IMG/VR virus record: IMGVR_UViG_3300034013_000764
Location: 1-41,663 of that record
Direction: 5' to 3' (one strand)
DNA: 41,663 bases
Origin: a virus
Shown here: piece by piece, positions 4,540-41,663 of the stretch
Position numbering within the stretch: position 1 is the stretch's first letter
Layout of the letters: each line of letters starts with the position of its first letter
Notes under the pieces: generated by a model
Seen by the model: the letters and a program-made list of their open reading frames with translations, nothing else
What the model was told of the DNA's origin: nothing
The model's database searches: none
Program-made: the position numbers and the translations under genes

Positions 4540-4778
4540 GCTGCTAACTTCTTCTTTTTTTCTAGCCGTTGAAAGATTTCAAGAATTGCGGGGTTTGTAA
4601 TTGCTACTTTTGGCTCTTCCCCTTTGGGCTGTTTTAAAAATTCAGGATTTTGCTCATAAATCTTTTTTATGCGTGCGTTACATTTTTCATTAGCTAAAGC
4701 TGCATCTATCCCTGTACACACATCAAACATCGCATCTTGATAACATTCTACGATTTGGTTAACTACTGTGTTCTTCAT
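4536..4778 (-). CDS. Hypothetical protein
   Basis: An 80-residue protein coupled to both neighbours by four-base ATGA overlaps. It is predicted helical with two Cys residues near the N-terminus and a Lys-rich C-terminus (QRLEKKKKL). No domain recognised. Its place behind the initiator gene suggests a replication accessory role, which is inference. Confidence 0.7.
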   Translation of the reverse strand: MKNTVVNQIVECYQDAMFDVCTGIDAALANEKCNARIKKIYEQNPEFLKQPKGEEPKVAITNPAILEIFQRLEKKKKLAA

Positions 4779-5440
4779 GCGCTCAATGCCTCCAATTCAA
4801 TTAATGAATCCGTGTATGCCTTTGTTAGTTGGTTTATTCGTTCCTTGTGTTGCTCCTGTTGCTCTTTCGGGTAGGCCGAAGCTTTGTCTAGTGTTGCTTC
4901 TAAAATGTCAATCTTCTTCTTTAGTTCAGCGATTCGTTCATCTTTTGCAATTTGGATGCTTGCAAACTGGCTTGAATTGCCTTTGATTACCCTTTCCTGA
5001 AGCTCATAATCTGCTTGCGAGAATCTGGCAATTTCTCTATTCATCACACGCCTAACCCATTCAGAAGGCTTAATTGACTCGCTTTCTACTGACTTGTTGT
5101 ATTGCTTATGGGTCTCAATGGTTCTTCCATTAATTCTGACATCTGGTTGCTCTTTGCAATATTTCAAGCGCTCCCTTCTAGCCTCGTATTTGTCGTTTAC
5201 AAACATCTTGCTATAATCGTCAAGAATGCCTAAGGCGGTCATTGCTTGCACTCTTAGCTGAGGAACTCGATTGTATTTCCATTCGTGCCATGCGTCAAAT
5301 AGCTGTTCATCAGCGTTTATCCGCTCATAGGTTGAATCAAAAGTTTCTCCTGCATATCCAAATATTTCGAGTGTTTCCCGTCTAATTGCAACGTTCACCC
5401 ATTGTTGCACTTCTTCTTTTTTGTCGATTGTTGGTTTCAT
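4775..5440 (-). CDS. Coiled-coil protein downstream of replication initiator
   Basis: A 221-residue protein starting at ATG 5440, which overlaps the initiator stop as ATGA; an in-frame TTG at 5455 is less likely. The N-terminal 100 residues are helical with many Trp and Tyr. Residues from about 150 onward form a long charged coiled coil (AKDERIAELKKKIDILEATL and following). In lambda this position holds helicase loader P, but I see no loader motif or ATP-binding loop, so that role is only a contextual possibility. Confidence 0.75.
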   Translation of the reverse strand: MKPTIDKKEEVQQWVNVAIRRETLEIFGYAGETFDSTYERINADEQLFDAWHEWKYNRVPQLRVQAMTALGILDDYSKMFVNDKYEARRERLKYCKEQPDVRINGRTIETHKQYNKSVESESIKPSEWVRRVMNREIARFSQADYELQERVIKGNSSQFASIQIAKDERIAELKKKIDILEATLDKASAYPKEQQEQHKERINQLTKAYTDSLIELEALSA

Positions 5441-6273
5441 GCTGCGTGGCTCCAAGACATATGGTTAGAATGCCATTTTTCGGGATCGGCAAAATATTCC
5501 GCTCGCTCCCTCTCAAACTTCTCTTGGATTTGCCTTCGAACGTCATCTAGACTGGTTACATCTTCAACGTCTAGCCACGATCTAGCATTTAAAAACACTT
5601 GGAAGCCTTGTCGAAATTGCGCATCAGGGTTGGCTTCTCTGTAAACCTTTATTGCTTTTAGCATGGTCTCTCGGTCTGGAAGAGCTTTTTCTCGCTTGAG
5701 TGATTGCCATTTCTTCCAGCTAAGCGCCTTGCTGCTTCTCCCTGTGTGCTCTCCCTGCCGATGTGCTTGGTATGCTTCTTCAAATATCACATCGTCTTTA
5801 CTAGATAACGTCGACACAGTCGACACAGCCGATTTTGGTTCAACAAAAATTTCTTTTTTTGTATTTTTTTCTTGATCTTGATCTTGACTCTTAAGATTAA
5901 GATTAATACTTAAGAGGAGGTCTTCTAGGCCTTGTGGCTCTAAGGCTTCCTGTCTCGGTTCTAGTGTCTGACTGGTTACAGTATAGTGTCTGACTAGTTG
6001 CTGCCTAGTGTCTGACTGGTTACAGCCTAGTGTCTGACTGGTTACTATTTTGGACAAAATATAGCGTCTTGACCCGCTTGATTGAAATGTAAATTCGTGT
6101 TTTGTTTGACTGATTAGTAGTGCAATATTTTGGTGTGAATATTTCCTATCTTGAAATTCAAATCTTTCTGCAATCTGTTTATTCGTCAAATTGATATATC
6201 CATATTTCTTGTTTTTGACTATGCAAGCTTTAAGAAATTTGATAAATGCAAGCTGAGTTGGGCTGTATATCAT
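5437..6273 (-). CDS. Lambda O-like replication initiator with internal origin
   Basis: A 278-residue protein. The first 75 residues look like a winged helix (SPTQLAFIKFLKACIVKNKK, then LTNKQIAERFEF). Residues of about 76-105 are encoded by four 22-bp iterons. A low-complexity Gln/Asp/Lys linker follows, and a C-terminal region (MLKAIKVYREANPDAQFRQG, then FLNARSW) resembles the tail of phage replisome-organiser proteins. As in lambda O, the protein would bind repeats inside its own gene and recruit replication proteins. It overlaps both neighbours as ATGA. Confidence 0.75.
   Translation of the reverse strand: MIYSPTQLAFIKFLKACIVKNKKYGYINLTNKQIAERFEFQDRKYSHQNIALLISQTKHEFTFQSSGSRRYILSKIVTSQTLGCNQSDTRQQLVRHYTVTSQTLEPRQEALEPQGLEDLLLSINLNLKSQDQDQEKNTKKEIFVEPKSAVSTVSTLSSKDDVIFEEAYQAHRQGEHTGRSSKALSWKKWQSLKREKALPDRETMLKAIKVYREANPDAQFRQGFQVFLNARSWLDVEDVTSLDDVRRQIQEKFERERAEYFADPEKWHSNHMSWSHAA
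5834..5915. other. AT-rich tract, candidate DNA unwinding element
   Basis: A run of T and A stretches with short direct repeats (TTGATC repeated, then TTAAGATTAAGATTAATA) lies about 45 bases from the iterons, inside the initiator gene. In lambda the iterons are likewise followed by an AT-rich unwinding region within gene O. The role is inferred from composition and position. Confidence 0.55.
5961..6047. repeat. Four 22-bp iterons, candidate replication origin
   Basis: The 21-base unit CTAGTGTCTGACTGGTTACAG starts at 5961, 5983, 6005 and 6027, exactly 22 bases apart. Copies 1 and 3 are identical, copy 4 differs only at the end, and copy 2 has a few changes. Because 22 is not a multiple of three, the copies encode different residues in the host gene, so selection acts on the DNA. 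Periodic repeats of about two helical turns inside an initiator gene are the hallmark of a lambda-type origin. Confidence 0.8.
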
Positions 6274-6614
6274 TCGTCTTCGCCTCCGTAGGCTATAGCC
6301 AGCATCACGGTTATATCTCTCAAAGCTTTAGACTCTGTACATTTAGCCGCATCTCGCATTATCCCGATCCCTGCACCAAAACAGGAATACGCAACCGACT
6401 CAGGATCTACCCCTTTGTGAAGTTTATTCATTACCCATTCATGCAACTCTGCTTTTATCTGATCTATCTCAGAAACATTTTCTGTTGAACCTTCCAAGGC
6501 TTCTAAAATAATGTTTTTTACTGAAGTCTTTCTTCTCTTTGCTTGCGACTCAATTGATTGATAGAGTGCTTTCTCTTCTTTCGTAGCAAACTTAATTTGA
6601 TAGTTAACTGTCAT
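6270..6614 (-). CDS. Ribbon-helix-helix-like protein
   Basis: A 114-residue protein overlapping the initiator start as ATGA. The first 45 residues (VNYQIKFATKEEKALYQSIE then AKRRKTSVKNIILEAL) fit a ribbon-helix-helix: a short beta strand followed by two helices. The C-terminal half is a separate helical domain with GAGIGIMRDAA. As the first gene after the promoter/operator at 6650-6710 it may regulate the replication operon, which is inference. Confidence 0.65.
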   Translation of the reverse strand: MTVNYQIKFATKEEKALYQSIESQAKRRKTSVKNIILEALEGSTENVSEIDQIKAELHEWVMNKLHKGVDPESVAYSCFGAGIGIMRDAAKCTESKALRDITVMLAIAYGGEDE

Positions 6615-7022: not shown

Positions 7023-7174
7023 TTGTTAACGTAAATCAACGACAGCATCGCCAAACCTAGCAAAACAAAAGCGGCTAAAACGGCTTGAAAACATGAACCC
7101 CAATTTATTCTCTTTTTCTTTGCAGGGATCAAGCGAATTGTTTGCGGATCTCTGAGTTTTCCTAATTCATACAT
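7019..7174 (-). CDS. Small single-span membrane protein
   Basis: A 51-residue protein starting at ATG 7174 with a strong AGGAG site six bases upstream. A GTG at 7207 would lie inside the predicted -10 box and is rejected. Residues of about 26-48 (CFQAVLAAFVLLGLAMLSLI) form one transmembrane helix after a basic segment (AKKKR), suggesting an N-in orientation. It is the first gene read from the leftward promoter in the control region. Function unknown. Confidence 0.7.
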   Translation of the reverse strand: MYELGKLRDPQTIRLIPAKKKRINWGSCFQAVLAAFVLLGLAMLSLIYVNK

Positions 7175-7198
7175 TTGCTTCTCCTGATCTCTATTACT

Positions 7199-7226
7199 AT
7201 TGTACACAATTAGGGTATTATGTCAA
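7199..7226 (-). promoter_or_regulatory. Leftward promoter overlapping operator 1
   Basis: On the minus strand TTGACA (7226-7221), 16 bases, then TACAAT (7204-7199) is close to the sigma-70 consensus. It would drive the genes at 7174 and 7022. Its -35 box is the left half of the palindrome at 7221-7236, so operator binding should block it. Confidence 0.6.
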
Positions 7227-8046: not shown

Positions 8047-8367
8047 ATGAACGAATCAATAACAATAAATGGCGAAGTGTATTACAAAAATCCACCAACA
8101 GAAGCCACTGGAGATATTAAAATTTGCGTTTTGCAAAGAGGGCACGTTCTGATTGGGCGATTTGAAAGAGATGGCTCTGAGTGCAAATTGCACAATGCCT
8201 CGGTTATTAGATCTTGGGGCACTTCAAGGGGGCTTGGAGAGCTTGCACAAAATGGCCCTTTAACAAATACAAAATTGGATAAATGTAACGGACTCGTTGA
8301 ATTTGATTACTTAACAGTTGTTTTCACCTTATCAGCCGAGGAATCAAAATGGCTAAACGTACTATAA
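8047..8367 (+). CDS. Conserved phage protein paired with glycine-rich genes
   Basis: A 106-residue protein with GAAAGGAAC as ribosome-binding site. The core KICVLQRGHVLIGRFERDG, then RSWGTSRGLGELAQNGP, resembles small phage proteins of the DUF6948 type. From memory, genes of this type are often found just upstream of (Gly-X)n glycine-rich genes, as here; this is unverified. Its last 19 bases overlap the first glycine-rich gene, implying coupled translation and perhaps a shared function. Confidence 0.7.
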   Translation: MNESITINGEVYYKNPPTEATGDIKICVLQRGHVLIGRFERDGSECKLHNASVIRSWGTSRGLGELAQNGPLTNTKLDKCNGLVEFDYLTVVFTLSAEESKWLNVL

Positions 8368-8591
8368 ATTTTGAGGTGAATCAAAATTCCTATAACTACG
8401 GCTTTGGCTCAGGCGATGGCTCAGGCAATGGCTTTGGTGATGGCTTAGGCTCAGGCGATGGCTTTGGTTCAGGCGATGGCTTTGGCTATGGCAACGGTTA
8501 CGGCTCAGGCTCAGGCGATGGCTTAGACTATGGCTTTGGTGATGGCTCAGGCTATGGCTCAGGCTATGGCTACGTCAACGGCGATGGCTAA
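8349..8591 (+). CDS. Glycine-rich (Gly-X)n protein, copy 1 of 7
   Basis: An 80-residue protein. It has the constant head MAKRTINFEVNQNSY and then a tail of alternating glycine with S, D, N, Y, F or L. The tail is encoded by GGC-NNN hexamers, mostly GGC TCA, GGC GAT, GGC TTT and GGC TAT. It starts inside the preceding gene (19-base overlap), unlike the other copies, which follow a 22-23-base spacer. There is no signal peptide, membrane span or catalytic motif. Alternating Gly-X favours flexible or silk-like beta structure; function unknown. Confidence 0.8.
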   Translation: MAKRTINFEVNQNSYNYGFGSGDGSGNGFGDGLGSGDGFGSGDGFGYGNGYGSGSGDGLDYGFGDGSGYGSGYGYVNGDG

Positions 8592-8614
8592 AACCCTAAA
8601 CTCATTAAACAAAA

Positions 8615-8884
8615 ATGGCTAAACGTACTATAAATTTTGAGTTAAATCAAAATTCCTATGACAAGGGCTTTGGCGATGGCTTTGGCTCAGGCTATGGCTC
8701 AGGCTTTGGCAATGGTTCAGGTTACGGCGATGGCTCAGGCTATGGCAATGGTTCAGGTTACGGCTCAGGCTTTGGCTATGATGGCGATGGTTATGGCGAT
8801 GGCTATGGTGATGGCTCAGACTATGGCTGTGGTGATGGCTCAGGCTATGGCTCAGGCTATGGCTACGTCAATGGTAACGGCTAG
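8615..8884 (+). CDS. Glycine-rich (Gly-X)n protein, copy 2 of 7
   Basis: An 89-residue paralog. The head is MAKRTINFELNQNSY and the tail is built from GYGSGFGNGSGYGDG-type units with S, Y, D, N, F. The ending YGSGYGYVNGNG matches copy 1 (YGSGYGYVNGDG), so copies 1 and 2 are the closest pair at the 3' end. It is preceded by the conserved A-rich spacer without a Shine-Dalgarno sequence. Confidence 0.8.
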   Translation: MAKRTINFELNQNSYDKGFGDGFGSGYGSGFGNGSGYGDGSGYGNGSGYGSGFGYDGDGYGDGYGDGSDYGCGDGSGYGSGYGYVNGNG

Positions 8885-8906
8885 TACCTTAAACAAATTA
8901 AACAAA

Positions 8907-9167
8907 ATGACTAAACGTACTATAAATTTTGACGATAATCAAAATTCCTACGGTTCAGGCGATGACTATGGCGATGGCTTTGGCTCAGGCTATGGCTTAG
9001 GCTATGGCAATGGTGACGGCGATGGCTCAGGCTATGGCAATGGTCGTGGCGATGGCTTTGGCTCAGGCTTTGGCTCAGGCTATGGCAATGGTGACGGCTC
9101 AGGCTATGGCAATGGTCGTGGCGATGGTGACGGTTGGGGCGATGGCTGGAACAACGACAACGGCTAA
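8907..9167 (+). CDS. Glycine-rich (Gly-X)n protein, copy 3 of 7
   Basis: An 86-residue paralog with head MTKRTINFDDNQNSY. I placed the start at ATG 8907 from the head shared by all copies; the same frame is open much further upstream, but only as an out-of-frame reading of copy 2. The tail includes the internal repeat SGYGNGRGDG twice, introducing Arg, and ends in WGDGWNNDNG. Confidence 0.8.
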   Translation: MTKRTINFDDNQNSYGSGDDYGDGFGSGYGLGYGNGDGDGSGYGNGRGDGFGSGFGSGYGNGDGSGYGNGRGDGDGWGDGWNNDNG

Positions 9168-9189
9168 TACCCTTAACTCATTAAACAAA

Positions 9190-9438
9190 ATGGCTAAACG
9201 TACTATAAATTTTGAGTTAAATCAAAGTTCTTACGGCAACGATGGCAACGGCAACGGCAACGGCTGCGGCTGCGGCTGCGGTTATGGTGACGATGGTGAC
9301 GGTTATGGTGACGGTTATGGCTTTGGCGATGGTGACGGCTATGGCAATGGTTATGGTGACGATGGTAACGGTAATGGCGATGGCTATGGTTATGATGGTA
9401 ATGGCTTTGGCTATGGCGACAATTACGGCAACGACTAA
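9190..9438 (+). CDS. Glycine-rich (Gly-X)n protein, copy 4 of 7
   Basis: An 82-residue paralog with head MAKRTINFELNQSSY, starting at ATG 9190 by alignment with the other copies. The tail is poorer in Ser and richer in Asp and Asn, with a GCGCGCGYG run carrying three Cys residues. It ends GYGDNYGND. An antisense open frame across it is an artefact of the repeat. Confidence 0.8.
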   Translation: MAKRTINFELNQSSYGNDGNGNGNGCGCGCGYGDDGDGYGDGYGFGDGDGYGNGYGDDGNGNGDGYGYDGNGFGYGDNYGND

Positions 9439-9461
9439 AACCCTAAACAAATCAAACAAAA

Positions 9462-9731
9462 ATGGCTAAACGTACTATAAATTTTGATGAAAATCAAAAT
9501 TCCTACGGCGATGGCTCAGGTTGTGGTGACGGTTATGGTTTAGGCTACGGCTCAGGCGATGGCTTTGGTGACGGCTATGGCAATGGTTGCGGTAATGGCT
9601 ATGGTGATGGTCATGGCGATAACTTTGGTGACGGTGACGGTTGTGGCGATGGCTTTGGTGATGGCGATGGTATAGACGGTGACGGTTATGGCTCAGGCTA
9701 TGGCTACGGTTGGGGTGACGGCGATGGCTAA
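9462..9731 (+). CDS. Glycine-rich (Gly-X)n protein, copy 5 of 7
   Basis: An 89-residue paralog with head MAKRTINFDENQNSY. The tail contains Cys and His in addition to D, Y, F, N, S (GDGHGDNFGDGDGCGDG) and ends YGYGWGDGDG. The spacer before it is 23 bases and Shine-Dalgarno-free. Confidence 0.8.
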   Translation: MAKRTINFDENQNSYGDGSGCGDGYGLGYGSGDGFGDGYGNGCGNGYGDGHGDNFGDGDGCGDGFGDGDGIDGDGYGSGYGYGWGDGDG

Positions 9732-9753
9732 TACCCTAAACAAATTAAACAAA

Positions 9754-10026
9754 ATGACTAAACGTACTATAAATTTTGAGGTGAATCAAAATTCCCACGG
9801 CTACGGCAACAGCAACAGCTGGGGCGATGGTTATGGTGATGGTTGTGGTGATGGCAACGGTTGCGGTGGTGGTGGCTGGGGTGATGGTTATGGTGATAGT
9901 CATGGCGATGGTTGTGGCTTAGGCTACGGCTCAGGCGATGGCTTTGGTGACGGCTATGGCTATGGCAATGGTGACGGCGATGGTTATGGCTGGGGCGGCG
10001 GTTATGGTGATAATGGTTATGGCTAA
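9754..10026 (+). CDS. Glycine-rich (Gly-X)n protein, copy 6 of 7
   Basis: A 90-residue paralog with head MTKRTINFEVNQNSH, starting at ATG 9754 by alignment. The tail opens with an unusual GNSNSWGDG segment, has Trp, Cys and His, and includes a GGGG run (CGGGGWGDG). It ends YGDNGYG. Confidence 0.8.
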   Translation: MTKRTINFEVNQNSHGYGNSNSWGDGYGDGCGDGNGCGGGGWGDGYGDSHGDGCGLGYGSGDGFGDGYGYGNGDGDGYGWGGGYGDNGYG

Positions 10027-10048
10027 AACTCTAAACAAATTAAACAAA

Positions 10049-10315
10049 ATGGCTAAACGTACTATAAATTTTGAGGTGAATCAAAATTCCCACGGCTTAG
10101 GCTCAGGTTGTGGCTATGGCGATGGTTGTGGTTATGGTCATGGCGATGGTTGTGGCGATGGCTTAGGCTATGGCAATGGTGACGGCTCAGGCTATGGCAA
10201 TGGTCGTGGCGATGGCGATGGCGATGGTTATGGCTGGTGCGGCGGTTATGGTTACGGCGATGGCTGGGGCGATGGCTATGGTTATGGCGATGGTGACGGG
10301 GGATATTGCAACTAG
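10049..10315 (+). CDS. Glycine-rich (Gly-X)n protein, copy 7 of 7
   Basis: An 88-residue paralog with head MAKRTINFEVNQNSH, starting at ATG 10049. The tail carries several Cys residues spaced among Gly (GSGCGYGDGCGYGHGDGCGDG) and the SGYGNGRGDGDG unit shared with copy 3. It ends GDGGYCN, departing from the repeat. A short terminator-like hairpin follows at 10329. Confidence 0.8.
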   Translation: MAKRTINFEVNQNSHGLGSGCGYGDGCGYGHGDGCGDGLGYGNGDGSGYGNGRGDGDGDGYGWCGGYGYGDGWGDGYGYGDGDGGYCN

Positions 10316-16358: not shown

Positions 16359-16643
16359 TTAAACTACTTGCCAATCATCAGCAAGTACATCTGTTTGAGA
16401 TGCAAGCCATGGAACAACATTACCTTGAGCTGTTTTCATTGCAATGTATGCACCATAAGGAACAGTTTCACCAAAATGCTCTTTTGCTATTTCGGTTTGT
16501 GCTGGGTATGATGCAGCGGGAACGTAATATATAAACATTCCTTTGCCATTCCAGCCAGAGCGGGCAACTTTTGAGCCTGCTTTTAATTCTTCTAAAGCAG
16601 TTCCAAAGCCAAATTCTACAATGTTGATTTCATCTGGATTCAT
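16359..16643 (-). CDS. tad2: Tad2-like anti-Thoeris protein (DUF2829 family)
   Basis: A 94-residue protein. FGTALEELKAGSKVARSGWN followed by GKGMFIYYVP (about 13-42), and YIAMKTAQGNVVPWLASQTD followed by VLADDW (about 66-91), are the two signature blocks of the DUF2829/Tad2 family. Characterised Tad2 proteins form tetramers that sequester the cyclic ADP-ribose-type signal made by Thoeris ThsB, keeping ThsA from killing the cell. Only residues 1-12 are an unusual extension. Family is confident; defence activity is inferred. Confidence 0.85.
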   Translation of the reverse strand: MNPDEINIVEFGFGTALEELKAGSKVARSGWNGKGMFIYYVPAASYPAQTEIAKEHFGETVPYGAYIAMKTAQGNVVPWLASQTDVLADDWQVV

Positions 16644-16993: not shown

Positions 16994-17232
16994 ATTATTT
17001 TTGCCCTTCTTGGATCTAGTCCGAGCTCTTCAGTAGTTAGCATAATTCCTGAATCGTAATCAGTAGTATAACCACCATTGTCATATCTTACAAAAGCGGT
17101 ATCAGGATAATTCTTCGCAATGTAAAACAAAAGTTCTAAATCAGACACTTCAACATCTTTAGTTTCTAATTCTTTTATTACTGCCTCTGCCCTCTCTTTG
17201 AGGTTTGGCGCTGTCATTATTATTTTGTTCAT
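16990..17232 (-). CDS. Small hypothetical protein
   Basis: An 80-residue protein with helix-rich N-terminus (LKERAEAVIKELETKDVEVS) and a Tyr/Gly/Asp-rich segment (FVRYDNGGYTTDYDSGI). ATG 17232 overlaps the nuclease stop as ATGA. Function unknown. Confidence 0.7.
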   Translation of the reverse strand: MNKIIMTAPNLKERAEAVIKELETKDVEVSDLELLFYIAKNYPDTAFVRYDNGGYTTDYDSGIMLTTEELGLDPRRAKII

Positions 17233-17522
17233 TTAATCAGCTCCTTAATTTGTTCGAAATATAGTTTTCCTGTGGCAAAACAAAACACCTTCCAACCAAG
17301 CATCTGGGCATGATTCCATTTTTCATAATCGTTATGGATATTTGTGTAGCTGCGAAAATGATCACTGCCATTTATTTCAATTAGTATCTTTTGGTCAACA
17401 AATGCAAAGTCAGCTCTCCACTTTCTAGATGGTTCGTATCTATATTGTATTTCATAACCTGTTATATTTTCCAGTTTGCACCAGTCAACAAACTTTTGCT
17501 CAGGTGGGGTTAATTTGCTCAT
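17229..17522 (-). CDS. PD-(D/E)XK-like nuclease (DUF559/VSR-like)
   Basis: A 97-residue single-domain protein. WRADFAFVDQKILIEING places Asp38 and Glu49-Ile-Asn51 at the expected acid positions of a PD-(D/E)XK fold, with the usual Lys replaced by Asn. DYEKWNHAQMLGWKVFCF matches the conserved later helix-strand (EKxNxAxxLGWxVxxF) of small phage nucleases. It could trim or nick DNA during replication or packaging. It overlaps the upstream gene by 23 bases. Confidence 0.75.
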   Translation of the reverse strand: MSKLTPPEQKFVDWCKLENITGYEIQYRYEPSRKWRADFAFVDQKILIEINGSDHFRSYTNIHNDYEKWNHAQMLGWKVFCFATGKLYFEQIKELIK

Positions 17523-41170: not shown

Positions 41171-41595
41171 TATTCTAATAGCTGCATTACGTCATCAATT
41201 ACTTTGTCGTTGCGTTGCTGTAAAGTGCATATCTCTTGACTCCATTCGTCGAAAGTAAGCGCCTCAAAAGGGACTACCATAAAGTTGTCAATCATGTCAT
41301 CGCCTGTATAACGACACAGGAATTTGCCTTTATCTACTTCGTCGATTACTCGCACTGAGCAAGCCGCATCAAGCGTAATATGTTCTTCTATTTGCCTGTA
41401 TGGCATCGAAATTCCGAGCGCATTTGTGCTCCAACCGCTTTCTCTAACTATAACCGTAATATCAGTATTAGGCTTTATATAGGCCAGATTGTTTACGGGC
41501 TTCCAACTGGTAGGCAGGTCTAAATCTTCCACCTTCTTCATTTGGTCGCCTGTTGCGATTGTGGGATTTGCTTTGTATGGCTTAAAATCGGTCAT
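41170..41595 (-). CDS. Hypothetical protein upstream of portal
   Basis: A 141-residue protein that continues directly from the gene at 56-505 across the contig join (its ATG corresponds to position 59 and overlaps that gene's TGA). It is beta-rich in the middle (NTDITVIVRESGWSTNALGI) with a helical, Asp/Gln-rich C-terminus. Its role, perhaps an assembly factor between packaging and portal genes, is unknown. Confidence 0.75.
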   Translation of the reverse strand: MTDFKPYKANPTIATGDQMKKVEDLDLPTSWKPVNNLAYIKPNTDITVIVRESGWSTNALGISMPYRQIEEHITLDAACSVRVIDEVDKGKFLCRYTGDDMIDNFMVVPFEALTFDEWSQEICTLQQRNDKVIDDVMQLLE

Positions 41596-41663
41596 TTGTA
41601 TGTGATTGTTACCCTTTCGGTCCCACTAATTGCAATATTCATTTCTTGCGGCCCGTTGATTAG
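41537..41663. repeat. Right copy of 127-bp terminal overlap
   Basis: Identical to positions 1-127; the genome closes here into a 41,536-bp circle. The start of the 141-residue gene lies inside this copy. Confidence 0.95.

Follow-up and report, generated by a model that had tools for sequence, protein, structure and literature searches.

A putative iteron-type replication origin inside a phage initiator gene, and its divergence together with the predicted recognition helix in a sister phage

A phage gene for a DNA-binding protein that carries a regular array of direct repeats within its own coding sequence raises two questions: whether the repeats are the origin at which the gene's product starts replication, and how such an arrangement changes among related phages. 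We examined such a gene in the window, that is, the whole 41,663-bp stretch of DNA that was analysed (IMG/VR record IMGVR_UViG_3300034013_000764). An exact 127-bp direct repeat occupies both ends of the record (1–127 and 41537–41663) and the sequence of a sister phage, L003, is continuous across the joint of those ends, so that the record appears to be complete, as a circularised genome of 41,536 bp. Along the gene, a winged-helix domain is followed by four 22-bp units, a short conserved stretch, an AT- and purine-rich tract, and a C-terminal domain (Table 1).

Table 1. Coordinates in the window of the initiator gene, its predicted parts and the adjoining downstream gene.
Feature	Position	Strand	Basis
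Replication initiator gene, with the putative origin inside it	5437..6273	-	ORF, 278 aa; sister initiator matches phrog_270
Winged-helix DNA-binding domain (predicted), residues 1-76	6046..6273	-	AlphaFold model and fold search
Predicted recognition helix, codons 47-57	6103..6135	-	Most divergent stretch between sister phages
22-bp iteron, copy 1 in gene direction	6027..6048	.	Repeat analysis, pattern count
22-bp iteron, copy 2 in gene direction	6005..6026	.	Repeat analysis, pattern count
22-bp iteron, copy 3 in gene direction, most divergent	5983..6004	.	Repeat analysis, pattern count
22-bp iteron, copy 4 in gene direction	5961..5982	.	Repeat analysis, pattern count
Predicted DNA unwinding element: AT-rich, coding strand rich in purines, short direct repeats	5854..5913	.	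Stability scan
C-terminal domain, residues 158-278	5437..5802	-	Weak phrog_26426 (replication protein) match; exchanged in L003
Downstream gene, candidate partner protein	4775..5440	-	Overlaps initiator stop by ATGA

The four copies at exact 22-base spacing that an earlier note on this DNA had described were recovered by TRF as a single array (5961–6045; period 22, 3.9 copies, score 135), whose units share 17–21 of their 22 bases. Allowing up to three mismatches, the pattern TAGTGTCTGACTRGTTRC matched the window four times, every time within the array and nowhere else in the genome, while dinucleotide shuffles yielded a mean of 0.10 matches and none of 100 reached four. Searched as a DNA pattern in the viral contigs, the iteron gave no match. 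Within the gene, 55 of 66 bases matched at a lag of 22, a count that did not exceed 37 in any of 300 codon shuffles. Successive units begin in codon phases 0, 1, 2 and 0, the frame shifting at each copy, and since units in different phases encode different peptides, the repeat appears to be kept as DNA rather than as protein, as the earlier note had argued.

Beside the array, the AT-rich tract reported earlier is also present, with its short direct repeats: TCTTGA recurs 3.7 times at 5870–5892, and TTAAGA four times at 5891–5915. The gene's least stable 60-mer, at 5854–5913, ranks at the 99.7th percentile when the 60-mers of the genome are ordered by duplex instability. Since about eight other, separate sites match or exceed it, several of them between genes, a high AT content is no proof by itself. 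In L003 the corresponding tract (7152–7211) is less stable than any other 60-mer in its 21.7-kb locus. Lambda O served as a positive control in the same stability scan, and there the least stable 60-mer (L017:924–983) falls directly after iteron 4 (902–919). A further repeat, GTCGACACA, is present in 2.6 copies at 5810–5832, inside the gene and immediately beyond the predicted unwinding tract, and is absent from L003. GC skew, proposed earlier as a check on the origin, proved unusable: its cumulative minimum (34,934) and maximum (15,035) follow gene orientation, and we therefore rejected it as origin evidence. Consensus searches, which are informative only for a known host, found no DnaA box near the putative origin and placed the nearest IHF-like match at 6551, outside the gene.

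Similar arrangements are found in well-studied phages. Lambda O has four iterons of about 20 bp in the middle of the gene, at spacings of 20, 24 and 23, followed by the gene's least stable 60-mer, and the same layout of in-gene repeats with an adjacent unstable tract is seen here. The likeness to lambda drawn in the earlier note thus holds for the layout, but not for the type of iteron: each lambda iteron is an inverted repeat of 19 bp to which O binds as a dimer (PMC5043065), whereas those of the window look mainly like direct repeats at exact 22-bp spacing, any palindrome being confined to a short core (GTC-A-GAC, 7 bp, kept in both phages, its arms without clear extension). In this respect the repeats look closer to those of SPP1 oriL, which lies in gene 38 and combines direct repeats with an AT-rich unwinding element bound by the gene's product (PMC6316719), and to plasmid iterons, which are direct repeats phased with the DNA helix (PMC5043065). 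Direct-repeat iterons inside an initiator gene are therefore already known from SPP1 oriL. The SPP1 system, likened here by layout, comprises the origin-binding protein gp38, the loader gp39 and the helicase gp40; it differs in having a second origin, oriR, also with direct repeats, and its own helicase, whereas in the window the repeat occurs at one place and no helicase family was found.

The protein itself is not a member of the lambda O family (Phage_rep_O, PF04492), which was unmatched in the window phage (G000) and in both sisters (G001 and G002) in the same search that returned lambda with E 2.5e-38; the earlier impression that the proteins are unrelated was thus correct. A full-length model of the initiator was unusably poor (pLDDT 41). 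The AlphaFold model of residues 1–76, made from an input of two sequences, is of moderate confidence (pLDDT 70.6) and has the element order H-E-H-H-E-E. Among the nearest folds to this domain was the winged helix of RepE of the F plasmid (several entries, probability 0.97–0.98, TM-score 0.61–0.64), a weak match, as none was significant by E-value (0.07–0.1 for the RepE entries) and winged helices are common. The plasmid record search gave no sequence similarity to iteron plasmid initiators, whose iterons usually lie outside the initiator gene.

Profile searches with the window initiator (P0001) returned no Pfam match, PF09681 included, and no strong match to an initiator family. Its counterpart in L003 matches phrog_270 (replication initiation proteins; E 3e-11), which also matches the rep gene of TP901-1 and so links the two. 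The window initiator is without a phrog_270 match in the profile search, perhaps because its C-terminal half differs; that half, the C-terminal domain, is probably the part that recruits a helicase or partner protein. Beyond L003, no relative of P0001 was found among viral contigs, genome contigs, phage records or plasmid records, suggesting an initiator without close relatives in the public phage and plasmid records searched, which would add to the in-gene origins of the lambda/SPP1 type.

The 48 phage proteins scanned include no polymerase, helicase or loader family, in agreement with the earlier note, although this absence rests on family searches and an unrecognised one could exist; a possible gp32-like SSB is encoded. 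Elsewhere in the window, a small gene directly upstream of the initiator gene (6270–6614, minus strand), absent from L003 at that place, encodes a product whose N-terminal part is ribbon-helix-helix-like by eye and gives a weak Arc-like profile match (E 0.094). Adjacent small glycine-rich ORFs with short tandem repeats, some sharing a start like KRTINF, occupy 8349–10315 on the plus strand, and the same kind of region is found, rearranged, in L003. Two further genes, both on the minus strand, encode a Tad2-like protein (16359–16643; PF11195, E 6.1e-28), the name coming from the Thoeris anti-defence domain, and a protein with a DUF559 domain (17229–17522; E 9.6e-5), possibly the same as a homing-endonuclease PHROG match.

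We consider it very probable that the array and its adjoining tract form an iteron-type theta origin of the lambda/SPP1 kind, located inside the gene of its own initiator and recruiting host replication proteins. The winged-helix domain would bind the four 22-bp repeats, whose spacing of about two helical turns would place all copies on one face of the DNA; the assembled complex would then strain the adjoining AT-rich tract (about 5854–5913) until it melts. Recruitment of the host's replicative helicase would fall to the C-terminal domain, probably aided by the product of the translationally coupled downstream gene, and replication would be completed by the polymerase and replisome of the host. 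Initiator binding, melting and helicase recruitment have been established experimentally in lambda and SPP1 (PMC5043065, PMC7466680, PMC6316719); for the window phage we infer these steps, and dependence on the host, from the layout.

The same repeats might instead be operator or copy-control sites, acting in self-repression or handcuffing, with the true origin elsewhere. Plasmid iteron arrays often have control roles, and it is a plasmid protein, RepE, that stands among the nearest folds; however, the array is some 230 bp into the gene, between the winged-helix and C-terminal domains and away from the promoter, an origin is favoured by the adjoining unstable tract and by the like layout of L003 and of lambda, and the pattern count gave no further copies in the genome. 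We regard control sites as improbable, and retain an origin within the gene as the preferred reading.

If the repeats are the target of the protein, related phages might be expected to preserve their arrangement. Two sister phages were reached via the terminase, G001 (L002, 98% identical) and G002 (L003, 97% identical), and searches with the capsid and portal genes returned the same two and no others. The initiator locus is variable among them, while the flanking DNA is approximately 91–96% identical in both comparisons. The same gene is present in one relative, L003, and the comparison that follows is with that phage. The N-termini of the two initiators are 77% identical over 76 columns. The repeats and their spacing, the loss of which from relatives with the same gene the earlier note had taken as grounds for abandoning its reading, are both retained: four 22-bp units, in register and without gaps, are present in L003, although the third is degenerate and has lost the GTCAGACA core, and the L003 array is followed by the same kind of tract.

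What has changed is the repeat sequence, from TAACCAGTCAGACACTAG in the window to CAATGTGTCAGACAGTAC in L003 or, in register, from AA-CCA-GTCAGACA-C-TA-G to AA-TGT-GTCAGACA-G-TA-C, with columns altered in several units at once. Corresponding units are identical across the two phages at only 12, 12, 13 and 16 of 22 positions, hardly more than non-corresponding units (mean 12.8), and are thus less alike than the units within the window phage, indicating that the units changed in concert. Concerted change of this kind would follow if a single protein has to recognise every copy.

The protein differences are likewise unevenly distributed. The sisters differ at 3 of 44 positions in residues 3–46, at 9 of 11 in residues 47–57, and at 4 of 18 in residues 58–75, the cluster at 47–57 having a permutation p of 0.0002. 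DNA identity follows the same course, falling from 92% over codons 3–46 to 39% across the helix; the wing stands at 74% and the array at 61%, before identity returns to 88% over the next 60 bp. Residues 47–55 form the third helix of the modelled domain, which in winged-helix proteins is usually the recognition helix; as this is the expected reader of DNA, the DNA-reading part appears to have changed together with the DNA. With two sequences to compare, a single exchanged segment and rapid co-adaptation would both give this divergence of helix and repeats.

These comparisons also bear on whether the repeats are a tandem duplication in a flexible linker, either neutral or selected at the protein level, that plays no part as a DNA site. 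Linkers do tolerate repeats, and one L003 unit has degenerated, as such a duplication would allow; yet 22 is not a multiple of three, the peptide differs at each copy, and L003 has kept the spacing free of gaps through a change of sequence that affected the units jointly and the recognition helix as well; this account is therefore very improbable.

At the same locus, G001 carries an unrelated initiator, a Phage_rep_org_N protein (PF09681, E 2.8e-23) of the streptococcal/lactococcal type, with repeats of its own within the gene: five TGTAAC sites lie 10–11 bp apart (six matches in the locus versus 0.3 expected), followed by a purine-rich AGAGAAG tract. This organizer cassette occupies L011:1802–3455, and its type is common in streptococcal and lactococcal phages, with 328 matching phage records. 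Tandem repeats are also found in packaging, partition and recombination sites, but the array of the window lies inside an initiator-type gene rather than at the terminase small subunit, the families found in the window include neither a partition protein nor a recombinase, and in G001 the array has been replaced along with the initiator, leaving a site of this kind the least probable of the explanations considered.

Returning to the origin within the gene, a second border is evident in the comparison with L003. Homology ends at window position 5850, immediately past the unstable tract, and is regained at 4902 inside the downstream gene, so that the C-terminal part of the initiator and most of the downstream gene (its N-terminal part) seem to have been exchanged together. 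The downstream gene overlaps the initiator stop much as lambda P overlaps the stop of O, by four bases, and this overlap, with the joint exchange, fits a partnership of the O–P type; because the downstream protein had no family match in profile searches, its role as partner is one that we infer. In the sister phages, then, the DNA-reading part with its target and the C-terminal part with its partner appear, as far as sequence comparison can tell, to behave as two exchangeable cassettes. It is conceivable, though we would not put it at even odds, that recognition helix, wing and iterons were exchanged as one segment of about 180 bp (residues 47 to about 105), amounting to a switch of specificity by a single recombination, with the border after the tract letting the C-terminal domain and partner be exchanged separately.

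The window phage and L003 thus form a natural pair with jointly divergent repeats and predicted recognition helices in nearly identical surroundings, and one that is suited to testing a one-step exchange of origin specificity. Such a pair could reveal which residues set that specificity, and why origins of this kind sit in initiator genes. If the single-segment exchange did take place, an origin placed right behind the recognition helix would permit origin specificity to be switched in one step, which would help to explain why phages keep origins inside their initiator genes.
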